47,765 nt of DNA, taken from the NCBI GenBank assembly GCA_014799505.1, contig JAAVHV010000001.1:63840-111604 (forward strand), given 5' to 3'. Source of the stretch: Clostridiales bacterium (lineage in GTDB: Bacteria > Bacillota > Clostridia > Oscillospirales > Oscillospiraceae). Positions 307 to 21,820 of this stretch are shown here, piece after piece; the first letter of the stretch is position 1; every line of letters begins with the position of its first letter. The notes under the pieces were generated by a model. That model had not been told where the DNA came from and did not search any database. It worked only from the letters and a program-made list of their open reading frames with translations. The translations under genes were made by a program, and so were the position numbers.

Positions 307-2031
307 ATGCGTATTCAACACAACATTATGGCCATGAGCGCCTACCGCAACTACACCAACAACGTCTCCGCCATGAAGAAGAACCTGGAGAAGCTCTCCT
401 CTGGCTACAAGATCAACCGCGCCGGTGACGACGCCGCCGGTCTGGCCATTTCCGAGAAGATGCGCGCCCAGATCACCGGTCTGGAGACCGCTCAGAAGAA
501 CGCCAAGGACGGCATCAGCCTGGTGCAGACCGCTGAGGGCGCCCTGCAGGAAGTTCATGATATGCTCAACCGTATGGTCGAGCTGGCCACCCAGTCCGCC
601 AACGGCACCTACGAGGGCGACACCGACCGCGCTCAGCTCCAGAAGGAGATCACCCAGCTGAAGAGCGAGATCAACCGCATCGCTGACTCCGCCAACTTCA
701 ACGGCATCAAGCTGCTGAACGGCGACATGGACGGCAGCATGAAGCTGGGCACCCTGACGGATATCGCGGATGACATTACCCCCGTGGCCGATGGCGAGCA
801 GGCCGCTGTCACCGAGTCCAAGGCCGGCGTCTACGAGATCGACCTGAGCGATATGAAGCTCACCGGCGACGGTGCCCAGGATATTTCCATCACCAAGTTC
901 AAGATCGGCACTGCGGAGTTCATGAAGAGCGCTTCCACCGCTGTTGACCTCTCTACCCTTGATGATGCCGATGAGATCACCGGTGAGGCTCTCGCCACTG
1001 CGCTGAACGGCAGCACCATCACGCTGGACGGCATCAAGTACGATGTGAAGGGCGAGAACGGCAAGCTCACCCTCACCTCCACCGAGGTGCCTGATGACGA
1101 GAACGACCTCACCAAGAACTTCAAGGTAGACTTTGCCTATACCAACGCTGTGGACGGCACCAATGGCTGGGATCAGTCCGTCCATATCAAGGAGGCGGCC
1201 CAGGTTGCCGGCAGCAGCAAGCTGGCCCAGGGCGAGTTCACTCTGGACAACACCATCGTCAAGGACGGCGGCGTCCTCCAGATCGGCAAAGAGACCTACG
1301 TGTTCCAGGTGGGCAAGGACAGCAAGGTCACCGAGGGCACCGGCTATAAGGTCATCGATCTGAGCAAGTACGAGGCTGACGACGCCAACCTGGTACAGGC
1401 GGCGGCCACCAAGCTGAGCCAGCAGAACAACCCCGAGTTCCACATCACCACCAAGGGTGAGGGCGCTGCCAGCGTGACCATGCACCTGACCGAGAGGGCC
1501 GACGCCATCGACTACAGCAAGTCCGACTACGACCTGACCGGCGACAATGGCGGCTCCCTCAACGGTGACGGTAATGCGGACGCCACCTGGGCCAACGTGG
1601 TCAAGACCGGCACCATGAGCTCCGGCAACGGCAAGTCCCTGACCCTCCAGATCGGCGACACCGCCGCTGACTACAACCAGCTGAAGGTCAACATCAGCGA
1701 CTGCCACGCGGCCGCCATCGGCGTTGGCGATATCGACATCACCACCCAGGAGGGCGCGGCTGAGGCCATCGACAAGATCAAGGCCGCCATCAACTACGTG
1801 TCCGACGTCCGCGGCACCCTGGGCGCCACCCAGAACCGTCTGGACCACACCATCAACAACCTGTCCGTCATGACCGAGAACATCCAGGACGCCGAGAGCA
1901 CCATCCGCGACGTGGATATCGCCGAGGAAATGATGGCCTACACCAAGAACAACATCCTGATCCAGTCCGCCCAGGCGATGCTGGCCCAGGCCAACCAGGT
2001 GCCCCAGGGCGTCCTGCAGCTCCTGCAGTAA
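307..2031 (+). CDS. fliC: flagellin
   Basis: Flagellin is the filament subunit, exported by the flagellar type III system and polymerised outside the cell. The N-terminal D0/D1 region (residues 1-140, starting MRIQHNIMAMSAYRN) and the C-terminal D1/D0 region (about 480-574, ending QGVLQLLQ) are conserved. The middle 140-480 is a long variable domain rich in Thr, Ser, Asp and Gly, where glycans are normally attached. At 574 residues it is longer than minimal flagellins (about 270-400). The D1 motif LNRMVELATQSANGT (residues 87-101) keeps Arg89, and Glu114 is also present; these match the TLR5-contact positions in Salmonella flagellin. The start is preceded by a strong AAAAAGGAG site. It lies upstream of the modification island that probably acts on it. 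Confidence 0.97.
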   Translation: MRIQHNIMAMSAYRNYTNNVSAMKKNLEKLSSGYKINRAGDDAAGLAISEKMRAQITGLETAQKNAKDGISLVQTAEGALQEVHDMLNRMVELATQSANGTYEGDTDRAQLQKEITQLKSEINRIADSANFNGIKLLNGDMDGSMKLGTLTDIADDITPVADGEQAAVTESKAGVYEIDLSDMKLTGDGAQDISITKFKIGTAEFMKSASTAVDLSTLDDADEITGEALATALNGSTITLDGIKYDVKGENGKLTLTSTEVPDDENDLTKNFKVDFAYTNAVDGTNGWDQSVHIKEAAQVAGSSKLAQGEFTLDNTIVKDGGVLQIGKETYVFQVGKDSKVTEGTGYKVIDLSKYEADDANLVQAAATKLSQQNNPEFHITTKGEGAASVTMHLTERADAIDYSKSDYDLTGDNGGSLNGDGNADATWANVVKTGTMSSGNGKSLTLQIGDTAADYNQLKVNISDCHAAAIGVGDIDITTQEGAAEAIDKIKAAINYVSDVRGTLGATQNRLDHTINNLSVMTENIQDAESTIRDVDIAEEMMAYTKNNILIQSAQAMLAQANQVPQGVLQLLQ

Positions 2032-3370: not shown

Positions 3371-5377
3371 ATGGACGCCATAGAAATCGCCCGCCGCATG
3401 GCGGAGCTGGGAAGCGCTGAGGACGCCTGCCAGGCCTATACCCTTGCCCTCCGCGGCGGGACGCTCGCCCCGGAGGAGGAGATGGAGGCGGCAGTCTATA
3501 TTTTGCAGTCCGGCGGGGACTACAAGGTGGCGTACACCTGCTTCTGCGGCCTGTATGGGCGGGGTGTTTTCCGGGAGGACTGCCTGTCCATCATGACTGC
3601 GGCCTTTTATGAACCCAATATCAAGCTGCTGAAAGCCCGATATGAAAAGAATTGCCGGGCGCTCAGCAAATACCCGTACCTGTTCCGCAAGGACTTTCCC
3701 GCGTTTGAGGAGCTTCCCATCCGTTTTTATCCCTTCGACGACGACGGATACCTCCCCTTCTTTCCCCGGGAGGGGCGCTTTGGGGAGTACGTCAACTTCA
3801 AAAATCCGGTGATCGGCCGGAATTTCTTTCATGACTTGGAAAATCCCATCCTGGCTAAGGATGTTTACTCCCAGTATGAACTGGAATATTTGAACGACAA
3901 TGTGCGCAGAAGTGAGGATATTGCCCGGGAGAACCATATTTATCTCCATTACAGCGATTGGGCGGCCTTCTGCGCATATTTGCAGTGTCTGAACGTCCGG
4001 CGGCTGCTGAAGGACAAAAAGCTGGTCTTTTTGATCGGGGATGAGATCGAACAGTACCCCATTGATTTCAAGGCCCGCTTCGGCATCGACTACAGCGGCT
4101 TTGAGGTGAAGCCCATCGGCATCCGGGACGTGCACCGGTTGATCTGGCACACCCAGCTGGCTACCCATAACGGCGGCGACTTTTTCAACGAAGTGTTTGA
4201 CAGCCATCCCAATCTGGTGATCCTGCCCTCCGTCATGATGGGCGATGTGGAGACGGCGATCAACACCTACCGCAAGAACCTGGACGTCATCGGGGACGCA
4301 CGGACTGCGGAGGCCCTTTTGACCAAACTGAAACGGCCGGTGGCACGGGAGCTCTTCCAACTCCAGGACCGCACCGACAAGGACATCGCAGTGGCGATCT
4401 TTTTGAGCCTTCGGGACTACGCGGCGCAGCTGGACCACACGTCGCGCATCGCCCCCGCCCTGTTTTTCCAGCCCCACTTCCCCAATATCCTTTACGACCT
4501 GACCTTGGACGCCCGGGGGCGGGCGGTGTTGTCCTGCCCGCAGCTGGAGCAGATCCGCAATTCCCCCGTGTTCCGTGCTTTCAAGTATATCAAGACCTTC
4601 ACCCCCATGCGCCGTATCACCACCAGCTATGGGGCCTCGAACCGCTTTTTGGCGGCCATGGCAACGGTGCAAAGTGAAGAAGAGCGGGAGGGGCACGTCA
4701 CTTTCGACCATGTGGCCGGCAGGGTTCAGAACCGCAGCTATATGATCGACCCGGAGGATCGGCTGTACAAGGATAGTGTGCTGGTGCGGTTTGAGGACAG
4801 CAAATTGAACCCCAAAGCCACCTTTACCGCGTTGGCGGCCTTTTTGGACATCCCCTATACCGAGAGCATGACCTATTGCTCTACCGAGGGGGAGCGGGAT
4901 AAGACGACTCTTGGCAACGATATCGGATTCTCCACGGGCGCTGTTTACCGCACGTATGACGAGTACGCTACCGACGCGGAACGCTGCTATATTGAATACC
5001 TTATGCGGGACGCCTATGCGTATTACGGCTACGATTTCCAGTATTATGACGGCGGCCCCATGGACGAGGAGCGTGTTCGGGAGTTGATCCGCGGCTTCAC
5101 CGCCATGAACGGCCTTATGTGTGAATCCTGGCAGAAGAACATCCTGCCGAAGGCGCGGCTGCTCCGCGACGGCGAGGAGGTCGCTGACGACGAAATCGTG
5201 GCGGGACGTGCGGAGCTGTTGAACAGGATTATTGCACAGGCTGATGAAGACCGCTTGCGGATCGCAAAGCTGCTGTCCAAAGACCTGCATTTTGTGAACA
5301 AAAACGGCCAGCCTCTGCGCATGATGCCCAAACTGGAGCTTGACCCGGCACTGCTGGAGCAGCCGCTTTACCACTGA
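3371..5377 (+). CDS. large protein with helical N-terminus and sulfotransferase-like C-terminal half
   Basis: I do not recognise the full 668-residue protein. Residues 1-90 look like TPR-type helical repeats. Around 200-300 there is a strand-helix region beginning KKLVFLIGDE. The C-terminal half contains FKYIKTFTPMRRITTSYG (about 399-416), resembling the 3'-phosphate-binding R-x2-P-x4-S segment of sulfotransferases, and VRFEDSKLNP with FLDIP (about 478-500), resembling their YEDL...P...FLG.P segment. A canonical PAPS P-loop is not visible; LFFQPHFPNI (about 362-371) occupies the likely place. A PAPS-dependent or related transferase acting on flagellin or its glycan is inference, helped by the CysC-like kinase 200 bases downstream. 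A glycosyltransferase of the Maf type is an alternative. Confidence 0.5.
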   Translation: MDAIEIARRMAELGSAEDACQAYTLALRGGTLAPEEEMEAAVYILQSGGDYKVAYTCFCGLYGRGVFREDCLSIMTAAFYEPNIKLLKARYEKNCRALSKYPYLFRKDFPAFEELPIRFYPFDDDGYLPFFPREGRFGEYVNFKNPVIGRNFFHDLENPILAKDVYSQYELEYLNDNVRRSEDIARENHIYLHYSDWAAFCAYLQCLNVRRLLKDKKLVFLIGDEIEQYPIDFKARFGIDYSGFEVKPIGIRDVHRLIWHTQLATHNGGDFFNEVFDSHPNLVILPSVMMGDVETAINTYRKNLDVIGDARTAEALLTKLKRPVARELFQLQDRTDKDIAVAIFLSLRDYAAQLDHTSRIAPALFFQPHFPNILYDLTLDARGRAVLSCPQLEQIRNSPVFRAFKYIKTFTPMRRITTSYGASNRFLAAMATVQSEEEREGHVTFDHVAGRVQNRSYMIDPEDRLYKDSVLVRFEDSKLNPKATFTALAAFLDIPYTESMTYCSTEGERDKTTLGNDIGFSTGAVYRTYDEYATDAERCYIEYLMRDAYAYYGYDFQYYDGGPMDEERVRELIRGFTAMNGLMCESWQKNILPKARLLRDGEEVADDEIVAGRAELLNRIIAQADEDRLRIAKLLSKDLHFVNKNGQPLRMMPKLELDPALLEQPLYH

Positions 5378-5378
5378 G

Positions 5379-5579
5379 ATGGGTGACATGGAACGGGAAT
5401 TGGCGGCGCTGGACGAGATGGAATACCTGCTGGAGCGGATGCTGGATTTGGCAAAGTGCTCCGCCAGCGACAGATGCGATGATGCGCGCCGTGAGGATTT
5501 ACAAAAGGGCTTGGAGGTTTTGCGTGCCCTGCTGGACCATACCGTGGAAGAATACCAAAGAGGGAGAACGACTGAATGA
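5379..5579 (+). CDS. small acidic helical protein, unknown
   Basis: The 66-residue product starts MGDMEREL one base after the previous stop and overlaps the next gene by four bases (ATGA), so it is translationally coupled on both sides. It is predicted mostly helical, rich in Glu, Leu and Arg with heptad-like spacing, and could be a coiled-coil adaptor. A start at 5388 (MEREL) is equally possible. No family is recognised; the tight packing between two cassette genes is the main reason to call it real. Confidence 0.65.
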   Translation: MGDMERELAALDEMEYLLERMLDLAKCSASDRCDDARREDLQKGLEVLRALLDHTVEEYQRGRTTE

Positions 5580-6091
5580 TCGAAAAGGGAACGGTTTATT
5601 TCTTTACCGGCCTGGCCGGGGCTGGTAAGACTACTCTCGGCGGGCTGTTCTATCGGCGGCTGCGGGAGCGGAAACCCAACGTGTTCCTGGCGGACGGCGA
5701 CCAGGTGCGCAGCATTTTCGGCCGCTCCGGGTATTCCACTGAGGCCCGCAAGGACGCCGCACGGCGGGGGTTCCGCCTGTGGCGTGAGCTGGCGGAGCAG
5801 GGCATTGACGTGGTGGTGTGCAGCATCGCCATGTACGATGAGATCCGGGCCTGGAACCGGGAAAACATTGAGAATTATAAGGAAATCTACATCAAGGTGA
5901 CCCGTGAGACGCTGTACCGCCGGGATCAGAAGGGTTTGTATTCCTCCGGACGGAAGGAAGTGGTGGGTGTGGATCTGCCTTTTGACGAGCCGCGGAACGC
6001 GGATGTGATTGTAGAAAACGACGGCGCGGAAAGTCCTGAACTGATTGTGAGCAGGCTGGAAAAACAGTTTGAATTGGATCGTAACCTTTGA
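5576..6091 (+). CDS. APS-kinase-like (CysC family) nucleotide kinase
   Basis: The family phosphorylates the 3'-OH of adenosine 5'-phosphosulfate to make PAPS, the universal sulfate donor. Seen here: Walker A GLAGAGKTT (residues 12-20), the substrate loop DGDQVR (about 40-45), and the C-terminal RRDQKGLY (about 113-120) with LPFDEPRNADVIVEND, all typical of CysC. The length of 171 is normal for a stand-alone kinase. No ATP sulfurylase is present in the window. In surface-glycan loci, relatives such as Campylobacter Cj1415 phosphorylate CDP-linked substrates instead, and a cytidylyltransferase follows here, so the true substrate could be a CDP compound. Family call is firm, substrate is not. 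Confidence 0.8.
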   Translation: MIEKGTVYFFTGLAGAGKTTLGGLFYRRLRERKPNVFLADGDQVRSIFGRSGYSTEARKDAARRGFRLWRELAEQGIDVVVCSIAMYDEIRAWNRENIENYKEIYIKVTRETLYRRDQKGLYSSGRKEVVGVDLPFDEPRNADVIVENDGAESPELIVSRLEKQFELDRNL

Positions 6092-6105
6092 GAGGGTGAT
6101 CGTGC

Positions 6106-6822
6106 ATGAACATCGCGTTGATTATTGCCGGCGGCGTAGGCAATCGCATGAACCAGGACATCCCCAAGCAGTTTTTGAACGTATTTGATAAGCCGGTCAT
6201 CATCTATACGCTGGAGGGGTTCCAGCGGCACCCGGAAATCGACGCTATTGAAGTGGTCTGCCTGGACGGCTGGAGCGAGGTTTTGTGGGCATATGCCAGG
6301 CAGTTCAGCATCGACAAGCTGAAATGGGTGACGCCCAGCGGGAGCACAGCTCAGGAGTCCATACGAAACGGCGTTTTTGCCTTAAAAGACGTATGTTCTG
6401 AGAATGATATCATCGTCGTCCATGATGGGATACGCCCTATGGTGGAGGATTTCGTTTTGTCCGACGTCCTGATCAAGTGCAAAAAATACGGGAACGCCGT
6501 AACAGCGCTGCCCTACAATGAACAGATATTTGTGGCGGATGATGCAGAAACGACGACCCGGTATATTCCCAGAGACACCCTGCGCCGGGTTTCGACCCCA
6601 CAGGCATATACATACGGGAAGCTGCTGTGGGCCTATGAAAAGGCGTTTTCAGAGGGCATTGGAATCCAGGCGTCAACCTACGCGAATACGCTGATGGTAG
6701 ACTTAGGGGAGCGGCTCCATTTTGCGTCTGGTTCCGAGAAAAACATCAAGCTTACAACAAAGGACGATTTGGAGCTGTTCAAATGCTATATTAAAATGGA
6801 GAAGGACAGCTGGCTGAAGTAG
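6106..6822 (+). CDS. IspD/TarI-like cytidylyltransferase
   Basis: This 238-residue protein has the GT-A nucleotidyltransferase start MNIALIIAGGVGNRM and PKQFLNVFDKPVIIYTLE of the IspD/TarI family, followed by HDGIRPMV (about 106-113) and TPQAYTYGKL (about 165-174), where IspD has TPQ.F. Such enzymes make CDP-alditols or CDP-methylerythritol from CTP and a phosphate ester. An isolated copy inside a surface-modification locus points to a CDP-activated polyol or similar donor and not to the isoprenoid pathway, whose kinase ispE lies at 30.2 kb. No TarJ-type dehydrogenase is adjacent; an SDR epimerase follows 11 bases later. Confidence 0.8.
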   Translation: MNIALIIAGGVGNRMNQDIPKQFLNVFDKPVIIYTLEGFQRHPEIDAIEVVCLDGWSEVLWAYARQFSIDKLKWVTPSGSTAQESIRNGVFALKDVCSENDIIVVHDGIRPMVEDFVLSDVLIKCKKYGNAVTALPYNEQIFVADDAETTTRYIPRDTLRRVSTPQAYTYGKLLWAYEKAFSEGIGIQASTYANTLMVDLGERLHFASGSEKNIKLTTKDDLELFKCYIKMEKDSWLK

Positions 6823-6832
6823 GAGCAAACAT

Positions 6833-7915
6833 ATGAAGTTGATGGAATGCCCGAAATATCTGGGCAGCTTGAAAAGCCTGCATCAAAGCTTTCCCCATTG
6901 GGAGCGGCTGGACGGCAGGACTATCTTCATTTCCGGTATGTCTGGGATGATAGGGAGCTTTCTGGCGGATGCCATCATGCTGCGCAACGAAGGCCTGCCC
7001 CCAGAGAGATGGATCCGAATCATTGGTATGGGGCGGGACAAGGCTGCCGCCCAAGTGCGGTTTGGGCGCTGGGTAAATAATGAGGCGTTTGCTTTTATCG
7101 CAAATGACATCAGCAATCCGATAAATGATTTGCCGTTTGAGCCGGACTACTGGATCCATGCGGCGAGTACCACCCACCCAGTTGCGTACGCGTCGGAACC
7201 AATCAACACGATCCTGGCCAATGTTCTGGGCACACGCAGCTTGCTGGAGATGGCCGCCCGAAAAAGGAACAGCCGTTTTTTGCTGCTGTCCAGCGTTGAA
7301 ATATATGGGGAAAACCGCGGGGATACAGAGTATTTTACCGAGGATTATTGCGGTTATCTGGACTGTAACACCTTGAGAGCGGGCTACCCGGAGGCAAAGC
7401 GTACCAGTGAGGCGCTTTGTCAGGCGTATATTGAGCAGGAGGGTGTGGACGCTGCGATTCTCCGCCTCCCCCGGTGCTACGGCCCCACCATGCGGGGAAG
7501 CGATTCGAAAGCCGCCGCGCAGTTTATCAAAAAAGCGGTAAACAGAGAGGATATTGTGCTGAAAAGCGCGGGGACGCAGCTGTACTCTTACGCCCATGTC
7601 CATGACGCGGTTTTGGGCATTTTGTGGGTGCTTTGCGCGGGAGAGTGTGGACAAGCCTACAATCTGGGTGACAAGCGGTCAGATATCACGCTGAAAGCGC
7701 TTGCCGAAACTGCCGCTCGCTGCGCTGGGACAAGGGTCATATGCCAGCTGCCCGATGATGAGACGGAAAGAAAGGGGTATTCCACCGTGTCGAAGGCTTT
7801 GTTGGATGCGGGAAAGCTTAAGAAGCTGGGATGGACAGCCCACTATGATATCGCGGCCGGCATCAAGGAAACGATCGATATCCTTCGTGCGCTGGATCAA
7901 GAGGATAAGGTATGA
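6833..7915 (+). CDS. NAD-dependent epimerase/dehydratase (extended SDR)
   Basis: An extended short-chain dehydrogenase acting on nucleotide sugars. A 28-residue extension precedes the Rossmann glycine motif SGMSGMIGS (about 35-43). The catalytic set is visible as LLSSVEIYG (Ser, about 151-159) and AGYPEAKR (Tyr-x3-Lys, about 183-190). The product RLPRCYGP segment is typical of sugar-nucleotide dehydratases. Its position between an IspD-like cytidylyltransferase and the rest of the island suggests a CDP- or other NDP-linked substrate, but the exact sugar cannot be read. SD AGGAG lies 8-12 bases before the ATG. It overlaps the following PHP gene by four bases. Confidence 0.8.
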   Translation: MKLMECPKYLGSLKSLHQSFPHWERLDGRTIFISGMSGMIGSFLADAIMLRNEGLPPERWIRIIGMGRDKAAAQVRFGRWVNNEAFAFIANDISNPINDLPFEPDYWIHAASTTHPVAYASEPINTILANVLGTRSLLEMAARKRNSRFLLLSSVEIYGENRGDTEYFTEDYCGYLDCNTLRAGYPEAKRTSEALCQAYIEQEGVDAAILRLPRCYGPTMRGSDSKAAAQFIKKAVNREDIVLKSAGTQLYSYAHVHDAVLGILWVLCAGECGQAYNLGDKRSDITLKALAETAARCAGTRVICQLPDDETERKGYSTVSKALLDAGKLKKLGWTAHYDIAAGIKETIDILRALDQEDKV

Positions 7916-8751
7916 GCATACTGTCTGATCTGCATACCCACAGTACCGCCTCCGATGGGCAGTATACGCCGGCAGAGCTGGTCGGGCTTGCCAAGGAGCG
8001 CGGGCTAAATACATTGGCCGTTACAGACCATGATACGGTGGATGGGATTTGCGAGGCGGTTCTGGCTGGAAAAGAGTTGGGTGTGCGTGTGCTGCCGGGA
8101 ATTGAGTTGAGCGCCCTGGAATACCACACGTTCCACATTTTGGGCTATGGGATCGACCCGGAGAACCCCACGCTGGCCGAGCTGTGCCGCAGGATGAAAG
8201 CCCGGCGGAATGAGCGTACAGGCCGCCTGCTAGCTTTTTTACAGGAAAAGGGTGTGGCGCTCACTGCCGCTGAGGTGGAAGCGGCTGCCGGCGGCGAGAT
8301 CATCGGGCGGCCCCACTTTGCCCAGGCGATGGTACGGCGGGGCTGCGTGGCAACTAACCGGGAGGCATTTGACCGCTATCTGGATACGGAGGAATACTAC
8401 CAACGGGTGGAGCGGGGAAAGCCGCCTGTAAAAGAGTGCATCGCGGCCATCCGGGCTGCGGGCGGCATGGCGTCGCTGGCCCATCCGTATCAGATTGGGA
8501 TCGGCGATGATGCCCTGGAAAAGTTGGCAGCTGAGCTTGCCGGGCATGGGCTGGAGGCCATTGAATGCTATTATCCCAAGCATACGCCGGAACAGGAGGC
8601 ATTTTACCTGTATTTGGCGGAGAAATACAAGCTGTATATCACCGGTGGGAGTGATTTCCACGGGGAAAAGGTGAAGCCGGATGTTAAACTGGCGGCGCTG
8701 GAGCTGGATTTGGGCTGGATGACAAAAACAGCATGGTCAGGGGGTTGTTAA
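7912..8751 (+). CDS. PHP-domain phosphoesterase, YciV/RnaAM type
   Basis: This family hydrolyses 3'-phosphates of 3',5'-bisphosphonucleotides such as PAP, or short RNA. All metal-binding motifs are present: DLHTHSTASDG (residues 6-16), TDHDT (about 38-42), PGIELS (about 62-67), GRPHFAQAM (about 127-135), SLAHPY (about 184-189) and GGSDFHG (about 243-249). The length of 279 is usual. The start overlaps the upstream stop as ATGA. PAP is the inhibitory by-product of PAPS-dependent sulfation, so placement a few genes after a CysC-like kinase and a sulfotransferase-like protein suggests by-product clearance. That link is inference; the family call is firm. Confidence 0.85.
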   Translation: MSILSDLHTHSTASDGQYTPAELVGLAKERGLNTLAVTDHDTVDGICEAVLAGKELGVRVLPGIELSALEYHTFHILGYGIDPENPTLAELCRRMKARRNERTGRLLAFLQEKGVALTAAEVEAAAGGEIIGRPHFAQAMVRRGCVATNREAFDRYLDTEEYYQRVERGKPPVKECIAAIRAAGGMASLAHPYQIGIGDDALEKLAAELAGHGLEAIECYYPKHTPEQEAFYLYLAEKYKLYITGGSDFHGEKVKPDVKLAALELDLGWMTKTAWSGGC

Positions 8752-9720: not shown

Positions 9721-9758
9721 CAGCAGTAAACACACCTAAGCATTGAGGAGTGAGCCTA

Positions 9759-11156: not shown

Positions 11157-11677
11157 GGCGGCGGATACTGGTTCCCGCGGTCCTTTTGGGCGCGGTTGGC
11201 GGCGGTATGTTGGTTAAAAGGCTGTGGCTGGAAAAATACCGTCAACAAAAAGAGGAACTGAACCGCGCCGAGCAGGAACGGGATCTGCTCCATACCTGGC
11301 TGCTGGTGGAGCAGCGGGGCGCACAGGTATCCGAGTATTTCACAGCGCATAATTATCACAGTGTGGCCATTTTCGGGATGGGGCCCATGGGTCGGCGCAC
11401 AGCAGACGCGCTGGGCGAGCTGGCTGCCTACGGTGTGGAACTGGACAACCTGGGCGCGGTGCATGAGCGGCTGACGGTCTACCGGCTGGGGGATGATCCC
11501 TTGCCCCCGGCGGACTGCATGGTGATTTGTGATGCCGCGCAGGCGGAGGAAAAGGAGGGGGCTGCCCGCCAGGAGTTCCCGGGCCAAATGATATCCCTGG
11601 GCAAGGTCATGGATTGGCTGTTGGAGCAGCATGGCGTTGGCTTGAACGAAACCGTTTGGAAGGCGGGAAGGCGATGA
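11153..11677 (+). CDS. membrane-anchored Rossmann-like protein, unknown
   Basis: The 174-residue product starts at a GTG that overlaps the previous stop. Residues 5-24 form one transmembrane segment (ILVPAVLLGAVGGGMLV), followed by a charged helical stretch (25-60) and a small nucleotide-binding-like unit with VAIFGMGPMGRRTADAL (about 70-86). The last part resembles the C-terminal lobe of the preceding radical SAM protein, so the two may share a partner or ligand. No named family is recognised. Confidence 0.6.
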   Translation: MRRRILVPAVLLGAVGGGMLVKRLWLEKYRQQKEELNRAEQERDLLHTWLLVEQRGAQVSEYFTAHNYHSVAIFGMGPMGRRTADALGELAAYGVELDNLGAVHERLTVYRLGDDPLPPADCMVICDAAQAEEKEGAARQEFPGQMISLGKVMDWLLEQHGVGLNETVWKAGRR

Positions 11678-12375
11678 AGCTGGGGATCATGCAGCCGTAC
11701 TTTTTCCCGTATATCGGTTACTGGCAGCTCATCAGCGCGGTGGACGAATATGTCGTTTTCAATGATGTCAATTACATCAACCGTGGATGGATCAACCGCA
11801 ACCGCATTTTGTGCCAGGGCAGGCCAATGTATATCAATATTCTTTTAAGTAAAGCGAGCCAAAACAAGAAAATCAACGAAATCGATGTACTCCAGGATGA
11901 ACGGCACACTGCAAAGCTGTTGCGTACCCTGCATGACTGCTACCATAAAGCGCCGCACTTTGGGGAAACATTTGAACTCGTATCGGACATTCTCGCCTCA
12001 AGTGCTGAAAGGCGGCTGGATCTGTACCTGCTCGACATTGTGCAGAGAGTTTGCGGTTGCTTGGGTATTACAACGCCTCTGGTCCTTTCGTCAGAAATTC
12101 CGCAAAAACCCGATCTGAGGGGGGAAGCGCGCATCATAGATCTATGCAAAACGTTGGGCGCGGACGAGTACTATAATGCGGTCGGAGGGCAGTCTCTGTA
12201 CAACCGGGAGCATTTCCAGCAGGAAGGAATTAGCCTCCGCTTTCTGAAAACAAATCCCATTGTCTACCGGCAATTTCAAAACGATTTTATAGCAAATTTA
12301 TCGATTTTGGATGTAATGATGTTCTGCTCTCCGGAAGAAATCCGGGGACTGTTGGGATCATATACGCTGCTATGA
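11674..12375 (+). CDS. WbqC-like family protein
   Basis: WbqC-like proteins occur in O-antigen and flagellin glycosylation loci and are thought to act on amino sugars, but their reaction is not settled. The start MKLGIMQPYFFPYIGYWQLI (residues 1-20), FNDVNYINRGWINRNR (about 28-43) and YYNAVGGQSLY are family hallmarks. I placed the start at 11674, overlapping the previous stop as ATGA; this gives 233 residues, the normal family size. The presence of an amino-sugar pathway downstream fits. Confidence 0.85.
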   Translation: MKLGIMQPYFFPYIGYWQLISAVDEYVVFNDVNYINRGWINRNRILCQGRPMYINILLSKASQNKKINEIDVLQDERHTAKLLRTLHDCYHKAPHFGETFELVSDILASSAERRLDLYLLDIVQRVCGCLGITTPLVLSSEIPQKPDLRGEARIIDLCKTLGADEYYNAVGGQSLYNREHFQQEGISLRFLKTNPIVYRQFQNDFIANLSILDVMMFCSPEEIRGLLGSYTLL

Positions 12376-15112: not shown

Positions 15113-15778
15113 ATGATTTATGATGCGCATCTTCATAGGAAAAATCTTGAAACAGGGGGATTCCTCATCGGGTTGGAGGGATTGCCTCTTTTCAAAGAGA
15201 AAGTTTTGAGTAATACAGAAGCATTATCGCTTCATGATCCGAATAAGCACTATGTTGCATTCTATTACGTATCAAAGCACGAGTGTGAAACAGTGACTAT
15301 TTCTCATAAGTATTTAAAATATCATCCCAAAAGAGAACAGTATACCCCGCTCCAAGTTATTGCTTCAATAAGAAGAAATAGCCCTAAAGCAGTTATCATT
15401 GATACGCTGAATGAACCATATTGGCGGCCATATGATTATTGGGAAGTGGCTCAGGAATTTCCAGAACTGCCCTTTGTCTTCGCGCATTCTGGAGGATATT
15501 CCATAAATGATTTTGTTAAGATATGTCACCTGCAAAAAAATGTTTGGATTGACTTCTCCCTGACCCATGCGACTTTGGGCAATTATGGAAGCCCAGAAAA
15601 GGGGTTGCCCTATGTGGAACAGGCAATCAAATATTCATTGAATTCACCATTTAAAAGCCGCGTACTCCTCGCTTCAGATTTCCCCTTTTTCTCTCAAGCC
15701 GAGGTGTTTCAATACTACGCTGAATATATTGATCAGCTGAACAACAATTTCCTGGAGCTTTTTCATCAAATAGTATGA
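15113..15778 (+). CDS. amidohydrolase-like TIM-barrel protein
   Basis: Metal-dependent hydrolase of the amidohydrolase-2 type, 221 residues, shorter than most members (about 280). It has the N-terminal YDAHLH (residues 3-8), FVFAHSGG (about 122-129) and the C-terminal LASDFPF (about 186-192) that supply metal ligands. The section between is reduced. It lies between the ATP-grasp and the RraA-like gene and probably acts with them. AT-rich like its neighbours. Confidence 0.7.
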   Translation: MIYDAHLHRKNLETGGFLIGLEGLPLFKEKVLSNTEALSLHDPNKHYVAFYYVSKHECETVTISHKYLKYHPKREQYTPLQVIASIRRNSPKAVIIDTLNEPYWRPYDYWEVAQEFPELPFVFAHSGGYSINDFVKICHLQKNVWIDFSLTHATLGNYGSPEKGLPYVEQAIKYSLNSPFKSRVLLASDFPFFSQAEVFQYYAEYIDQLNNNFLELFHQIV

Positions 15779-15821
15779 AAGCAGGTCTGTGCTGCGGAAG
15801 TCGGAAAGGTATTATGCTGAA

Positions 15822-16484
15822 ATGGAGATAAAGGAAAAAATTATAAATTACATTAAGAGAAACCGCGTCTCCACAACAGAGGTCGCGGACTGCCTGGGAA
15901 AATCAGGTGTCCTGGAAGGGCTTTTGCCGCTGAATCCCAGACATTTTGCGGTGGGGGAGATCCGATACCTCTATGCAATTCAGGAATCAAATTGGCCCGT
16001 CCACGAAGCGCTGGACAGGGACCCCGTAACCGATCAAGTGGTCTTCATCGATGGCATTGACGTCAATAACCGGGCCATTATCGGCGATATCGTTTCAAAG
16101 TATATCCTGCTGTATTTGGGCAACCGGGCTATCATATGCTCCGGGAAAATGCGGGATGCGCACATTCTGCTGAAAGAAAATTATCCAATCTGGTGCGGCG
16201 GCGTGTCCCCGGTCGGGTGTTTTAACACGCCGGTGGACGAGACGGAATTTGCGCGGACGATAGCGGAACGCAGGGACGAATTACAGGGTTCCGTGGCCGT
16301 CTGCGATGACTCCGGGGTCGTTGTGATTCCGAAACAGATGCTGACAGAAGAATTTTATCAGAAACTGGTCGCAATCGAGGAGCAGGAGGATATCTGGTAT
16401 GACTGTGTGGATCGAAGAAAATGGAGCACCTACAAAACGATCTGTTTGAAGGACTATTTGAAAGAGAAAGCAGGCCATGAATAA
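15822..16484 (+). CDS. RraA-like family protein
   Basis: The RraA fold includes true RNase E regulators and 4-hydroxy-4-methyl-2-oxoglutarate aldolases. Here the core SGKMRDAHIL (Arg111, Asp112) and the following PIWCGGVSPVG (about 122-132) match the aldolase active-site loop, with an N-terminal helical region (1-45) that could be a small winged-helix-like part. A start at GTG 15789 is possible; ATG 15822 follows GGAAAGG. It may make or break a keto acid used in glycan decoration. The end overlaps the aminotransferase start by eight bases. Confidence 0.75.
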   Translation: MEIKEKIINYIKRNRVSTTEVADCLGKSGVLEGLLPLNPRHFAVGEIRYLYAIQESNWPVHEALDRDPVTDQVVFIDGIDVNNRAIIGDIVSKYILLYLGNRAIICSGKMRDAHILLKENYPIWCGGVSPVGCFNTPVDETEFARTIAERRDELQGSVAVCDDSGVVVIPKQMLTEEFYQKLVAIEEQEDIWYDCVDRRKWSTYKTICLKDYLKEKAGHE

Positions 16485-17583
16485 CATTAACGTCACCCGT
16501 TCCTCTATGCCCCCGTTTGAGGAATACTGCGAGGAGATCAAAGACCTGTGGGACAGCCGCTGGCTTACGCATGAGGGGGCAAAAAACAAACAGCTGCAAG
16601 CTGAGCTGGAGCACTACTTAGGGGCAGAACATATTGAACTGCTGGTCAACGGCCACATGGCCATCGAGCTTTCCCTGCAGGCGTTTGGGCTTGAGGGAGA
16701 GGTGATCACCACACCATTCACGTTTGCCTCTACTACCCAGGCGATTATCCGCAGCGGCCTGACGCCGGTCTTCTGCGACATTGATCCGGTCACCTTTGAT
16801 CTCGACCCAGCGGAAATTGAGACCTTGATCACCCCGCGCACCTGCGCCATCGTACCGGTTCACGTCTATGGAACCGTCTGTGATGTAGAGGCAATCGATC
16901 GGATCGCAAAAAAGCATGGCCTGAAAGTGATCTATGACGCCGCCCACGCTTTTGGCGTGACCTACAAGGGCTGCGGAATCGGCTCTTTCGGTGACGCGGC
17001 CTGTTTCAGTTTTCATGCCACAAAGGTATTCCATTCGATTGAGGGCGGCGGGGCCTGCTTCCATGACAAGGAATTTGGCGAAAAACTATACCGGCTCAAG
17101 TTCTATGGCCAGAGCGGCCCGGAGGCTGTGGTGGACGTGGGAACTAACGCGAAAATGCACGAGTTTTCCGCCGCAATGGGCCTGTGCAATCTGCGCCATG
17201 TGGACGAGGAGATCGAAAAGCGGAGGCTGGTGGCACAGCGCTATGACGAACATTTGAAAAGCGTACCAGGCATCCAGCTTAAGGCCGCCCAGGAAGCCGT
17301 GCGATCCAATTATGCCTATTACCCTGTCGTGTTTGATGGGGAAATTTTCGGCGCTGACAGGGACGCGGTTCAAGCCGCGCTGAAGGGACATAACATCATG
17401 GCCCGTAAATATTTTTATCCGCTGACCAGTGCCTTTGCGTGCTATCATAACAGGTTTGACCCGGCACAGACGCCCATCGCCCAGCGGATCAGCCAGCAGG
17501 TATTGACCTTACCGCTGTACCCTGACCTGCCGCTGGAAATGGTGGATCGTATTTGCGAAATCGTGGTGAATTGCAAAGTATGA
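16477..17583 (+). CDS. DegT/DnrJ/EryC1-type sugar aminotransferase, VioA-like
   Basis: PLP enzyme that aminates a keto-sugar nucleotide using glutamate. VIYDAAHAFG (about 151-160) holds the PLP-pyridine Asp, and SFHATKVFHSIEGG (about 178-191) holds the Schiff-base Lys183. The N-terminal DSRWLTHEG and VITTPFTFASTTQAI are close to VioA and FdtB-type enzymes, which aminate C4 or C3 of dTDP-6-deoxy-keto sugars. Length 368 is normal. Together with rfbA and rfbB 3 kb downstream it supports a dTDP-amino-6-deoxyhexose. Position of amination (C4 favoured) is inference. Confidence 0.9.
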   Translation: MNNINVTRSSMPPFEEYCEEIKDLWDSRWLTHEGAKNKQLQAELEHYLGAEHIELLVNGHMAIELSLQAFGLEGEVITTPFTFASTTQAIIRSGLTPVFCDIDPVTFDLDPAEIETLITPRTCAIVPVHVYGTVCDVEAIDRIAKKHGLKVIYDAAHAFGVTYKGCGIGSFGDAACFSFHATKVFHSIEGGGACFHDKEFGEKLYRLKFYGQSGPEAVVDVGTNAKMHEFSAAMGLCNLRHVDEEIEKRRLVAQRYDEHLKSVPGIQLKAAQEAVRSNYAYYPVVFDGEIFGADRDAVQAALKGHNIMARKYFYPLTSAFACYHNRFDPAQTPIAQRISQQVLTLPLYPDLPLEMVDRICEIVVNCKV

Positions 17584-18968
17584 ACACAACGCTGCTATCG
17601 ATTGCCAAAAGCTGGCATACGGCTGACAGCACGGTAAATGCCACGGCCGAACTGATTTCCTGGGTTAGGCAGCGCAATTGTGAAGTTGAGGTCAATGTGC
17701 GAAAAGCCCGACTGGAGGACGACAAGTTTTGGTTTTACGATGGGCAGGAAGGCTGCATTCGCAACCAAAGCCGAAGCTTCTTCACGATCACGGGTTTCCG
17801 GCAGACAGGGCCGGATGGCAGCATACAAACCCAACCCATCATTGTCCAACCCGAGATCGGTTACTTAGGGATCGTCTGTCAGGAAATAGACGGTATCATG
17901 CATTTTCTCATGCAGGCAAAAATCGAACCCGGCAATGTGAACAAAATTCAAATCTCACCCACGCTCCAAGCAACCAAGAGTAATTTTACCTTGGCGCATG
18001 GCGGCGCCACGCCCCCCTATCTGGATTACTTTTTGAATGCGGGCAAATATGAGATTGTTGTGGATCAGCTCCAATCGGAACAAGCCTCCAGATTCTACAA
18101 AAAGCGGAACCGGAACATTTTGATCCGGGTAGACGAGGATATCCCCGTACTGCCAACCCACCGCTGGATGACGCTGGGGCAGCTCAAGGCGCTGATGCGC
18201 ATGGACAATTTGGTGAACATGGATACCCGCACCATCCTCTCCTGTATCCCCTATGCCCAATTGCATTTACCTCTCCCTCAAATGCAGGAGCTGTCAAATG
18301 GGTTTCGCGATGCCGCGCTGTTCCGCTCTGTTTTTGCTGACTCCGGTCACGATGCAATCCCAGGCATTTATCAATACTTGAATCATTGGAAAATGTTTTC
18401 TGAGACGCACAGCCAATTTGTGCCGCTGCATCAGTTAGAGGATTGGGAAATGCGGGACGGCGAATTTGTATGCAAACGCCCGTATCCATTCAAAGTAGCC
18501 TTCTACGATATCACCATCGCCGGCAGGGAGGTCACCCACTGGACACAGCCGCTGTTTGAGGCGATTGGGCCGGCCACCTTCGGATTGATTTGCTGTGAAA
18601 TAGATGGCGTCCTGAAGTTTTTGGTGAAAGCCATGCCGGAAATTGGCAGCTTCGATGGGCTTGAGCTCGGCCCAACCATCCAGCGCGAGGCGGCGGCCTT
18701 CAGCGAAGATGATGCCATCACCAGCTTTTTCATGAAACGGCTGGAGGGAGATAAGAATGTGATGTTCGACCATCTCCTGTCGGAGGAGGGAGGCCGGTTC
18801 TATCACGAACAAAACCGAAATGTTTTGCTGAAGGTTTCCCCGGAGGAACTGCCCCCGCTGCCAAGCGGATATTTTCTGCTGGACTATCGGACGCTGAATC
18901 GGCTTGTGCAGACTAACAATACGCTGAATATTCAGCTGAGGAACCTTTTATCACTGCTGGAGGCGTGA
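17580..18968 (+). CDS. NDP-hexose 2,3-dehydratase
   Basis: This family (EvaA, TylX3, SpnO) removes water from dTDP-4-keto-6-deoxyglucose to start 2-deoxygenation. The protein is 462 residues and made of two related halves, as in the family. Half one has SRSFFTITG (about 64-72) and QTQPIIVQPEIGYLGIVCQE (about 83-102), then QISPTLQATKSNF (about 124-136). Half two repeats this as HWTQPLFEA, FGLICCEIDG and LELGPTIQ (about 315-365). The start overlaps the aminotransferase stop (ATGA) and the end overlaps the ketoreductase start. It is best known from antibiotic clusters, so its presence beside flagellin is notable. Confidence 0.88.
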   Translation: MNTTLLSIAKSWHTADSTVNATAELISWVRQRNCEVEVNVRKARLEDDKFWFYDGQEGCIRNQSRSFFTITGFRQTGPDGSIQTQPIIVQPEIGYLGIVCQEIDGIMHFLMQAKIEPGNVNKIQISPTLQATKSNFTLAHGGATPPYLDYFLNAGKYEIVVDQLQSEQASRFYKKRNRNILIRVDEDIPVLPTHRWMTLGQLKALMRMDNLVNMDTRTILSCIPYAQLHLPLPQMQELSNGFRDAALFRSVFADSGHDAIPGIYQYLNHWKMFSETHSQFVPLHQLEDWEMRDGEFVCKRPYPFKVAFYDITIAGREVTHWTQPLFEAIGPATFGLICCEIDGVLKFLVKAMPEIGSFDGLELGPTIQREAAAFSEDDAITSFFMKRLEGDKNVMFDHLLSEEGGRFYHEQNRNVLLKVSPEELPPLPSGYFLLDYRTLNRLVQTNNTLNIQLRNLLSLLEA

Positions 18969-19921
18969 AGATGAGACTTGGCATTTTAGGTGCGGCGGAC
19001 ATTGCCTTCCGGCGTTTTCTTCCGGCGCTGCGCAAGTGCCCCAATATCACATATGCCGGTGTTGCCTCAAGAACGCCTGAAAAGGCGGCCCGTTTTTTAG
19101 AGACCTATGGCGGGCAGTTCTACCCGTCATATGATGCGCTTTTGGCCGATCGGAGCATCGACGCGGTATATGTTCCGCTTCCGCCCGCGCTGCACTATGC
19201 TTGGGGAAAAAAGGCGCTGGACGCTGGTAAGCATTTGTTTCTGGAAAAACCCTTTACAATCAGCGCGGAACAGACAAAGGCCCTGATTGCTGCCGCTCAG
19301 GAGCGAGACCTGATGGTGTACGAAAATTATGCGTTCGTCCATCACGCGCAGCTGGCGAAGATCAAGGGAATGATAGCGGACGGTACCTTGGGTGAGCTGC
19401 GGCTTCTGCGCGCGGGTTTTGGCTTCCCCAAGCGGAGCGAAGGCGATTTCCGCTTTTGCAAAGCCCTTGGCGGCGGGGCCTTGCTTGATTGCGGCGGATA
19501 TCCGCTCAGGCTTGCGCTGGAATTGCTGGGGGACACGGCGCAAGTGGTGCATTCCACACTGGCTCAGCCCGAAAATTATGAGGTGGATCTGTATGGATCC
19601 GCTGTACTGGCAAACGAAGACGGGCTTTGTATGCAGGCCGCATTCGGAATGGACAATGCATATCAATGCCAGCTCGAGGTGTGGGGCAGCAAGATGCTTT
19701 TGATCGCGCCCAGAATATTTACAGCTGGAGCAGAGTTCCGCCCCAGCTTGATTCTGCGCTCCTCCGTGGATGAGCAGCGTATGGAACTGGAGGCCGACGA
19801 CCAATTTTTACACGCAATCAAGTTTTTTGCGTCAGGAACATTGGACAAAGGTATACGCGGGCAGACGATGCGCAACATTGCCCGGCAGGCGGAATTGACA
19901 TCGGGTATCCGTCATAATTGA
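18965..19921 (+). CDS. Gfo/Idh/MocA-type sugar 3-ketoreductase
   Basis: NAD(P)-dependent oxidoreductase. [13 protein letters not shown] (about residue 6-18) is the Rossmann start and LFLEKPF (about 91-97) the family EKP motif with the active-site Lys. [20 protein letters not shown] (about 168-187) carries the usual D-x-G-x-Y/H segment. Members such as SpnN, TylC1 and KijD10 reduce the 3-keto group right after the 2,3-dehydratase, matching gene order here. Start GTG 18965 overlaps the upstream stop; ATG 18971 is the alternative. Confidence 0.88.
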
Positions 19922-19944
19922 AACGCGAAAGGTATGATGATACG

Positions 19945-20829
19945 GTGAGAGGCATCATTCTGGCAGGGGGATCTGGCTCAAGGCTGTATCCGCTCACAAG
20001 GGTTATTTCAAAGCAGCTTCTGCCTATCTATGACAAACCCATGATCTACTACCCCCTTTCCACGCTGATGCTGGCGGGTATCCGGGATATTCTGCTGATT
20101 TCAACCCCTGATGACGCGCCCCAGTTTGTCAAGCTGCTGGGGGACGGCAGCCAATTCGGCATCCAGCTGTCCTACGCTGTACAGGAAAAACCCGCAGGGC
20201 TGGCCCAGGCTTTTCTGATTGGAGAGGACTTCCTTGCCGGGGAGTCCTGTGCTATGATTTTGGGGGACAACCTCTTTTATGGCGGCTGGTTCCGCAGGAA
20301 CCTGCAGGAGGCAATTATCAATGCGTCAGAGGGCTGCGCGACGGTTTTTGGCTATTACGTAAAGGATCCGGAGCGCTTTGGCATTATGGAACTGGATCAC
20401 GATAAGAACGTGCTGTCGGTGGAGGAAAAGCCGGCGCATCCAAAATCAAACTACTGCATTACCGGACTGTATGTTTACGATGGCAGGGTCTCGGAGTTTG
20501 CGAAGCAGTTGAAGCCGTCCAGCCGGAATGAACTGGAAATTACCGACTTGAACCGGCTGTATCTGGAGGACGGAACACTGAGGGCGCAGGTTTTGGGCCG
20601 GGGGTTTGCCTGGATGGATATGGGTACGGTGGACAGCTTAATGGAGGCAGCGGTCTTTGTGGAGACAGTGCAGAACCGGCAGGGCGTTGTGATCTCCGCC
20701 CCGGAGGAGATTGCCTACCACGAAAAGTGGATTGGCCGCGAGGAGCTTTTGGTGGCGGCGGCTCGGTATGGAAATTCTCCCTATGGTGAACACCTGCGGA
20801 GGGTGTCGGAAGACAGATTTTTGGTTTGA
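19945..20829 (+). CDS. rfbA: glucose-1-phosphate thymidylyltransferase
   Basis: RmlA makes dTDP-glucose from dTTP and glucose-1-phosphate, the first step of the dTDP-sugar path. Nucleotide loop [16 protein letters not shown] lies at residues 3-18, followed by [25 protein letters not shown] and the EEKP segment. GTG 19945 gives 294 residues starting (M)RGIILAGG, the usual family start; an upstream TTG at 19918 that overlaps the previous stop would add nine residues. It is paired with rfbB while rfbC and rfbD are missing. Confidence 0.95.
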
Positions 20830-20842
20830 GGGGGTCAGCCAT

Positions 20843-21820
20843 ATGACGCTGATCATAACTGGCGGAGCCGGGTTTATCGGCTCAAACTTCATCTTTTACA
20901 TGGTGGAGCATCACCCGGAGGATCGGATCGTCTGCTTGGACAAGCTAACCTACGCAGGCCGCATAGACACCCTCAAATCGGTGATGGATCTGCCAAATTT
21001 TCGCTTTGTACAGGCAGATATCTGCGACCGGGAAGCGGTAGGCGGGTTGTTTGATGAGGAACGCCCTGATGCTGTGGTGAACTTCGCGGCGGAGAGCCAT
21101 GTAGATCGCTCCATTGACGCCCCGGAGGTATTTCTAAAGACAAATATCCTGGGAACGGCAGTGTTGATGGATGCCTGTCGGGAGCACGGTCTGACCCGCT
21201 TTCATCAGGTCTCTACTGACGAGGTCTATGGGGATCTGCCCCTGGACAGGCCCGACCTGTTTTTTACGGAGGAAAGCCCAATCTGTGCCAGCTCGCCGTA
21301 CAGCGCTTCCAAGGCGTCTGCGGATCTGCTGGCGCTGGCCTATCACCGCACTTATGGCCTGCCGGTGACGATTTCCCGGTGTTCCAATAACTATGGGCCG
21401 TATCAATTTACAGAGAAGCTGATTCCGCTGATGATATCCCATGCGCAGGAGGACAAACCTTTGCCGGTATATGGGCAGGGGCTGAATGTGCGGGATTGGC
21501 TGTATGTGGAAGACCACTGCCGTGCCGTCGATCTGATTCTGCGCTGTGGACAGCCTGGGCAAGTCTACAATATAGGCGGGCATAATGAATTGCGCAACAT
21601 CGACATCGTGAAGCTGATCTGCCGGGAGCTTGGGAAACCAGAAAGCCTGATTACCTATGTGGAGGATCGGAAGGGCCACGATTTGCGGTACGCCATCGAC
21701 CCATCCAAAATCCGGAGGGAGCTGGGCTGGGCGCCGGAGACGGATTTTGCCCAAGGAATTAAGAAAACGATCCACTGGTATTTGGAGCATCAAAATTGGT
21801 GGAAGGAGAAAACTCCATAA
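20843..21820 (+). CDS. rfbB: dTDP-glucose 4,6-dehydratase
   Basis: RmlB converts dTDP-glucose to dTDP-4-keto-6-deoxyglucose, the branch point for amino and deoxy sugars. TGGAGFIGSN is at residues 6-15, the dehydratase signature STDEVYGDL near 130, and YSASKASADLL with the catalytic Tyr-x3-Lys near 153. The protein has 325 residues. Start 20843 follows GAGGGGG by eight bases. It is the last clear gene of the island; downstream the strand stays the same but a new promoter appears at 21915. Confidence 0.95.
   Translation: MTLIITGGAGFIGSNFIFYMVEHHPEDRIVCLDKLTYAGRIDTLKSVMDLPNFRFVQADICDREAVGGLFDEERPDAVVNFAAESHVDRSIDAPEVFLKTNILGTAVLMDACREHGLTRFHQVSTDEVYGDLPLDRPDLFFTEESPICASSPYSASKASADLLALAYHRTYGLPVTISRCSNNYGPYQFTEKLIPLMISHAQEDKPLPVYGQGLNVRDWLYVEDHCRAVDLILRCGQPGQVYNIGGHNELRNIDIVKLICRELGKPESLITYVEDRKGHDLRYAIDPSKIRRELGWAPETDFAQGIKKTIHWYLEHQNWWKEKTP

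Follow-up and report, generated by a model that had tools for sequence, protein, structure and literature searches.

We analysed a 47,765-nucleotide stretch of the genome of a Clostridiales bacterium from the family Oscillospiraceae (assembly GCA_014799505.1, contig JAAVHV010000001.1; G000:C1:63840-111604 in our numbering, where G, C and L mark genomes, contigs and compared loci), hereafter the window, and all positions below count from its start. A flagellin gene, fliC, lies at 307-2031 and the next 20 genes, up to rmlB with its end at 21820, have the same orientation. We scanned these 21 genes as a putative island, in which fliC, the gene of the flagellin lysine N-methylase FliB and a five-gene sugar cassette share one strand and span 21.5 kb. 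The genes on which the interpretation turns are the following.

307..2031, plus strand: flagellin (fliC), 574 amino acids; PF00669 154.8 bits, PF00700 99.8 bits
2123..3352, plus strand: flagellin lysine N-methylase FliB; NF038110 148 bits (cut-off 85)
16477..17583, plus strand: DegT-family sugar 4-aminotransferase, DesI type; PF01041 336 bits (cut-off 19.8); structure 2po3, E=4.6e-62
17580..18968, plus strand: NDP-hexose 2,3-dehydratase, EvaA type; PF03559 412 bits (cut-off 25); EvaA, E=9.9e-86
18965..19921, plus strand: Gfo/Idh sugar 3-ketoreductase, KijD10 type; structure 3rbv, 'Sugar 3-ketoreductase', E=1.2e-65
19918..20829, plus strand: RmlA/RfbA glucose-1-phosphate thymidylyltransferase; TIGR01207 441 bits (cut-off 361)
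20843..21820, plus strand: RmlB/RfbB dTDP-glucose 4,6-dehydratase; TIGR01181 492 bits (cut-off 365)

A sequence-only reading of this DNA had described five enzymes, including a VioA-like aminotransferase, in one overlapping run without rfbC or rfbD. All five are present on the plus strand within 16477-21820, with family matches far above chance. The order given there was not the actual one, which is aminotransferase, 2,3-dehydratase, Gfo/Idh reductase, rmlA and rmlB, and the overlap holds for the first three junctions (4 bases each) but not for rmlA and rmlB, which are separated by a 13-base gap. As to rfbC, no PF00908 (RmlC) match was found in the organism's own genome assembly, which is 65% complete. 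For rfbD the evidence comes from general NCBIfam scans, with no genome-wide RmlD search: the rmlB gene scored far lower with the rmlD model than with the RmlB model, and the rmlD model was not listed for the short-chain dehydrogenase/reductase (SDR) gene at 6833-7915. Since RmlC was not found in this incomplete assembly, we rejected a rhamnose (rml) operon.

The residues expected to be catalytic are kept in the three enzymes that define the cassette. The 2,3-dehydratase consists of a duplicated PF03559 domain whose two stretches cover its full length, and both halves match EvaA; its Glu116 and Glu167 align with the EvaA catalytic residues E139 and E190, mutation of which abolishes activity according to the available part of PMC8987622. 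The best solved match of the 3-ketoreductase, 3rbv, differs from 3rc7, 3rc9 and 3rcb at chain positions 204 and 120; the former, altered in 3rc7, aligns with Tyr179 of the window enzyme, and the latter, altered in 3rc9 and 3rcb, with Lys95. We take 3rbv to be KijD10, with the mutated residues numbered Y186 and K102. The aminotransferase is best matched by 2po3 (molecule name '4-dehydrase'), presumably DesI, and has its pyridoxal phosphate (PLP) lysine, Lys183, in the motif SFHATK. The DesI model TIGR04427 is its top NCBIfam model at 304 bits, below the equivalog cut-off of 650 bits. The description 'VioA-like' is therefore fair as to the kind of enzyme, given 2po3 and the DesI model as best matches, although the DesI equivalog cut-off is missed. 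Judged by its sequence, the aminotransferase is an enzyme that works like DesI, though not filed as a DesI equivalog.

Three observations argue for amination at C4. In the aminotransferase tree, 2po3 and 16 aminotransferases form a clade supported at 100/99, with 7b0d and the aminotransferase of L105 outside; both of these resemble QdtB, which we take to be a 3-aminotransferase. After the PLP lysine the window enzyme reads EGG, as do 2po3 and PerA, and QdtB and 7b0d read GDGG. Finally, a 3-ketoreductase is present in all seven other loci that have both the dehydratase and this aminotransferase, which favours C4 because a C3-amination route should not need a 3-ketoreductase. A 3-amino sugar was rejected on the tree and the motif. 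A forosamine-type tetradeoxy route was rejected as well, since there is no SpnQ-like His-type 3-dehydratase, the sole DegT enzyme among the 21 genes carrying Lys183.

The established chemistry of these families gives the series from dTDP-glucose to dTDP-4-amino-2,4,6-trideoxyhexose. RmlA would make dTDP-glucose and RmlB would convert it to dTDP-4-keto-6-deoxyglucose; the EvaA-type dehydratase would then strip the C2 oxygen to give dTDP-3,4-diketo-2,6-dideoxyhexose, the KijD10-type reductase would act on C3 to give dTDP-4-keto-2,6-dideoxyhexose, and the DesI-type aminotransferase would add nitrogen at C4. A D configuration at C5 is expected because no RmlC was found. The enzyme families and the conserved catalytic residues thus back the sequence-only reading in its claim of a 2-deoxy, 4-amino sugar on dTDP. 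Overall, we consider the chance somewhat better than even that the locus is a flagellin modification island with an exchangeable cassette making D-configured dTDP-4-amino-2,4,6-trideoxyhexose. In this proposal the enzyme families, the key residues, the gene order and the differing cargo of congeners are read from sequence, and we infer each step and the order of steps, the sugar and acceptor of the glycosyltransferase, and the caps. The other genes of the island are as follows.

3371..5377, plus strand: conserved island marker gene, at best weakly sulfotransferase-like; no Pfam or NCBIfam match; CurM sulfotransferase profile, E=0.084
5576..6091, plus strand: adenylyl-sulfate (APS) kinase-like gene; PF01583 90 bits; NF004041 160 bits (cut-off 127)
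6106..6822, plus strand: IspD-family cytidylyltransferase; PF01128 122 bits; every NCBIfam model under its cut-off
6833..7915, plus strand: extended SDR sugar-nucleotide enzyme; PF01370 133 bits; every NCBIfam model under its cut-off
7912..8751, plus strand: PHP phosphoesterase; PF02811
8752..9720, plus strand: family 2 glycosyltransferase (GT2); PF00535
9750..11156, plus strand: radical SAM/SPASM protein; PF04055, PF13186
11153..11677, plus strand: protein without Pfam or NCBIfam match
11674..12375, plus strand: WbqC family protein, possible decoration enzyme; PF08889 234 bits
12379..13170, plus strand: methyltransferase, possible decoration enzyme; PF13489
13186..13773, plus strand: GNAT acetyltransferase, possible N-acylation; PF13302
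13811..15097, plus strand: ATP-grasp ligase with LAL_C2, possible aminoacyl or peptidyl cap ligase; PF13535, PF18603; L-amino acid ligase 3vot, E=8.8e-12
15113..15778, plus strand: amidohydrolase-like; PF04909
15789..16484, plus strand: RraA-like; PF03737

FliB sits between fliC and the remaining island genes, and an FHIPEP (FlhA) family gene occurs elsewhere in the genome (770 bits). To place the island in its genus, we used the marker gene at 3371-5377, relatives of which had 19 matches spread over 12 of the 42 genus genomes searched. Window aside, 16 of the 18 matches were fetched with their surroundings (all but G696:C83 and G695:C208), eight as 19.9-kb loci showing much cargo and eight as loci of 4.6-12 kb, some ending at a contig edge. 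The marker gene lies 3' of a flagellin gene in 16/16 of these congener loci, with FliB in between in L174, and it is followed by an APS-kinase-like gene in 14 of them; in L174 that gene comes after a second, related gene, and L210 and L213 are cut off by the contig edge. Seven of the 16 also have a PHP gene. Cargo was scanned in four loci, covering part of the cargo genes of each. In L211 the slot (L211:1201-8521) holds PseB, PseC, PseF, PseG and PseI above their equivalog cut-offs, five of the six pseudaminic acid enzymes (PseH was not searched). The L205 slot (L205:8620-14829) holds a phosphonopyruvate decarboxylase gene (466 bits, cut-off 312.5) together with nucleotidyltransferase-like and ornithine cyclodeaminase-like genes, possibly pointing to phosphonate on flagellin; the L214 slot holds genes for a methyltransferase, a pyruvyltransferase and a cytidylyltransferase-like/Gfo-Idh fusion protein (L214:10530-11879), and the L174 slot methyltransferase, PEP-utilising, peptidase C26 and nucleotidyltransferase genes. 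Since the marker gene is 3' of flagellin in all 16 loci and the cargo differs between the four scanned, we regard the slot as a flagellin-modification slot with exchangeable cargo. The placement of the pathway in a flagellin island, already proposed from the window itself, is strengthened by these congener islands, and flagellin is probably the acceptor of the glycan.

The GT2 at 8752-9720 is the likely amino-sugar transferase, because its relatives co-occur with this aminotransferase. We compared 86 loci, 15 with the aminotransferase (L165 and L166 being one genome) and 71 dehydratase loci without it (at least four contigs occurring twice: L033/L106, L028/L109, L034/L102 and L036/L110), and found GT2 relatives of at least 80 bits in 6/15 versus 0/71 (p=1.1e-5). 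Three of the six GT2 loci have the dehydratase and three do not. The eight loci that lack the dehydratase were collected by searching the window's own family for the aminotransferase, a choice that may bias towards similar GT2 genes; L044, L097 and L098, which make up half of the GT2 loci, had another origin. The GT2 would put the amino sugar directly onto flagellin in the cytoplasm, as no flippase or polymerase family occurs among the 21 genes scanned.

The ATP-grasp ligase, the GNAT protein, the methyltransferase and the WbqC protein would probably decorate the 4-amino group. WbqC relatives occur in 3/15 aminotransferase loci and 0/71 others, and in L160 and L162 an ATP-grasp gene adjoins the aminotransferase gene, while in L161 one lies nearby. 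According to the available text of PMC5207245, the type B flagellin of Clostridioides difficile carries a Fuc3N whose amino group is capped with taurine-Ala-Gly, and that of PMC5207246 reports a PF13535 ATP-grasp mutant in which the glycan is not extended past the trisaccharide. By analogy, we infer a capped 4-amino group here.

The 2,3-dehydratase family is rare in the order (12/394 genomes), the family (7/300) and the genus (3/42), three overlapping draws each including the window's own genome, and it was found in 0/14 control genomes. Scanning named genomes yielded 62 dehydratase loci, many from gut or rumen metagenome-assembled genomes (MAGs) by their record titles. In a dehydratase tree of 70 rows, the window falls in a clade of 59 rows (41 Bacillota, 11 relatives from the window's order, the window, two without phylum and four from other phyla), which is set apart at 100/100 from the other 11 rows (seven actinomycetes, two Bacteroides, a Verrucomicrobiota and a Lachnospiraceae MAG). 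The window enzyme is 32-35% identical to the seven actinomycete rows. Plasmid records yielded only distant dehydratases, 85/85 below 60% identity and 75 of them from Streptomyces. Furthermore, two loci with large neighbours scanned, L029 and L064, look like surface-polysaccharide loci, with YfhO in both and a CDP-glycerol glycerophosphotransferase in L029. The sequence-only reading had called the pathway one of 'antibiotic type'; the mostly Bacillota clade, apart from all seven actinomycete rows, and the character of L029 and L064 speak otherwise, and we rejected such an origin. A 3-ketoreductase accompanies the dehydratase in 74 of 78 compared loci, some loci being counted twice.

The cassette itself looks recombined from separate modules, as the closest relatives of its aminotransferase come from loci that lack the dehydratase. 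The window aminotransferase groups (98/94) with those of G013, G337, G459, G469 and G504, and L160, L161, L162, L164 and L165 have rmlA and rmlB beside the aminotransferase, which makes up a viosamine set. The nearest relatives of the dehydratase, in L026 and L068 (68% identity), were seen without such an aminotransferase, both being short contigs, as are some other rows scored as lacking it. On the dehydratase tree, the eight aminotransferase-bearing rows need eight state changes, the most possible, and still need eight when the rows without aminotransferase are restricted to the 43 having 5 kb on both sides. The dehydratase/ketoreductase and 4-aminotransferase modules therefore seem to join, or part, repeatedly; the change count does not tell gain from loss.

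Several observations weigh against our interpretation. Besides missing the DesI cut-off, the aminotransferase is compared with a structure, 2po3, that forms a long branch flagged by the tree program. Its nearest relatives (52-64% identity) belong to genomes in which the dehydratase had no match (G013, G252, G337, G459, G469 and G504), so viosamine could be its product. The dehydratase family was found in 0/11 other genus genomes with the marker gene, so the search turned up no further flagellin island with this set. Nor did blastp with the window flagellin find a flagellin gene beside the dehydratase in the 62 loci or a further 15, window aside. When 34 of the dehydratase genomes were searched (L029 and L070 being one genome), 22, several of them incomplete MAGs, gave no flagellin match, from which it follows that the sugar is not flagellin-specific; a general tie between dehydratase and flagella fails, with 12 of 34 genomes positive. 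These 12 include the window's own, Candidatus Butyricicoccus avistercoris twice (G138 and G663) and two weak matches (G656 and G667). GC content, below 0.56 in 15 of the 17 genes after the APS kinase gene and 0.637 in the window downstream of the island, speaks for the island, but the 15.9 kb upstream are also GC-poor (0.504), giving a one-sided contrast, so that composition alone does not mark the island edges. Lastly, a strong terminator-like hairpin with 10 G-C pairs lies directly 3' of fliC (2070-2093).

Among the alternatives, entry of the sugar into a cell-wall or capsular polymer, with the position behind flagellin incidental, ranks highest, though we consider it unlikely. It would fit the surface-polysaccharide-like loci in which the dehydratase occurs elsewhere (L029 and L064) and the flippase-family genes near the aminotransferase in L160 and L161, but the 21 scanned genes hold no flippase or polymerase family, the island holds FliB, and the corresponding slot of a congener is filled with pseudaminic acid genes. 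Next in rank, and also improbable, is that the aminotransferase makes ordinary dTDP-viosamine for flagellin, the 2,3-dehydratase and 3-ketoreductase yielding a by-product or a separate sugar of 2-deoxy type. The dehydratase-free genomes of its closest relatives and the five loci with rmlA and rmlB beside it point that way, and the SDR at 6833-7915 might conceivably act as 4-ketoreductase in making a neutral sugar; against this, the overlapping run has no 4-ketoreductase, one glycosyltransferase is recognised among the 21 genes, and the aminotransferase clade accompanies dehydratase and ketoreductase in seven other loci. The vancosamine route uses EvaA-type products for C3 amination, and an EvaB-like enzyme acting at C3 of the 3,4-diketo intermediate, with the Gfo/Idh protein reducing C4, would give a 3-amino-2,3,6-trideoxy sugar. 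We find this very hard to reconcile with the 2po3 clade, the EGG motif and a reductase nearest to solved sugar 3-ketoreductases. Least credible of all is a small-molecule (antibiotic-like) pathway or a set of inactive passenger genes: the 2,3-dehydratases named in the available part of PMC8987622 are from antibiotic clusters, but no polyketide or peptide synthetase family occurs from fliC to rmlB, and the frames are open with catalytic residues kept.

The predicted island shares features with several known systems and equals none of them. Like the actinomycete antibiotic routes of EvaA, SpnO and TylX3, it has an EvaA-family dehydratase with both catalytic glutamates, a KijD10-type 3-ketoreductase and dTDP sugars; unlike them, it has a dehydratase of a separate clade, a flagellin setting, no SpnQ step and no antibiotic scaffold genes. 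The tylosin 2,3-dehydratase serves a neutral sugar, mycarose. The sequence-only reading had stated that this exact enzyme order gives a 4-amino-2,4,6-trideoxyhexose in spinosyn and tylosin clusters, but Saccharopolyspora spinosa has a further 3-dehydratase, SpnQ, as the available part of PMC8987622 describes. Spinosyn and tylosin are inexact models for the cassette. The flagellin viosamine of Pseudomonas syringae resembles the sugar predicted here in being a 4-amino-4,6-dideoxy hexose whose amino group is decorated; two extra window enzymes should remove the C2 oxygen, whereas C2 carries an O-methyl group in Pseudomonas according to the accessible text of PMC3958885, in agreement with the earlier remark that Pseudomonas viosamine glycans keep the 2-OH. 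As in the C. difficile type B island, amino-sugar and PF13535 ATP-grasp genes lie behind fliC; there, however, the sugar is a 3-amino-3,6-dideoxy sugar keeping its C2 oxygen, three glycosyltransferases are involved, the rml genes are elsewhere, upstream of fliC, and the available portions of PMC5207245 and PMC5207246 mention no 2,3-dehydratase. Exchangeable cassettes near flagellin also characterise Clostridium pseudaminic and legionaminic acid islands, one of which, in C. butyricum, has FliB, as seen in part of PMC13317340. These islands differ in making nonulosonic acids from UDP- or GDP-linked GlcNAc precursors rather than a 2-deoxy dTDP sugar. Kedarosamine-type antibiotic sugars have the same 4-amino-2,4,6-trideoxy pattern but belong to the L series, are N-methylated and occur in an antibiotic setting; our literature search found no paper on kedarosamine with an aminotransferase.

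The glycosidic bonds of 2-deoxy sugars are weak, and antibiotics are the main source from which such sugars are known. We found neither a 2-deoxy flagellin sugar, in line with what the sequence-only reading had said, nor gut polysaccharide loci with such a dehydratase described among the papers listed by our literature searches, which mostly excluded subscription journals. The flagella of this bacterium probably carry a sugar chemistry best known from antibiotics. As the flagellin island and the surface-glycan-like loci suggest, such chemistry may have a role, too, on the cell surfaces that hosts and phages encounter. More tentatively, and with rather less than even confidence, we propose that the flagellin of this bacterium bears an aminoacyl-capped, perhaps also sulfated, 4-amino-2,4,6-trideoxyhexose, which would be the first case of a 2-deoxy sugar on flagellin, and that EvaA-type 2,3-dehydratases mark an undescribed class of 2-deoxy sugars in the surface glycans of gut Firmicutes, built by shuffling dehydratase/ketoreductase and aminotransferase modules. 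The cassette names enzymes for 2-deoxy-4-amino sugars and a clear mass to seek on flagellin.

Some further features of the island and its relatives deserve mention. Behind the flagellin genes of this genus, the marker gene is repeatedly accompanied by an APS-kinase-like gene and often by a PHP phosphoesterase similar to PAP phosphatase (window 3371-8751; L174, L202-L216), a set that hints at sulfated flagellin. The PHP homologue in L205 scores 177 bits with NF041577 (cut-off 400) and resembles a 3',5'-nucleoside bisphosphate phosphatase; ATP sulfurylase (PF01747) had no match in the organism's own, 65% complete genome assembly, in a search that did not cover the CysND type. The radical SAM/SPASM, unmatched, amidohydrolase-like and RraA-like genes (9750-11677 and 15113-16484) have no relatives of at least 80 bits among the 86 loci compared. 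The window's genome carries another FliB family gene (G000:C7:134654-135655, 166 bits), and phage-type integrase and reverse transcriptase genes (L088:3784-7093) lie 9-12 kb upstream of fliC.

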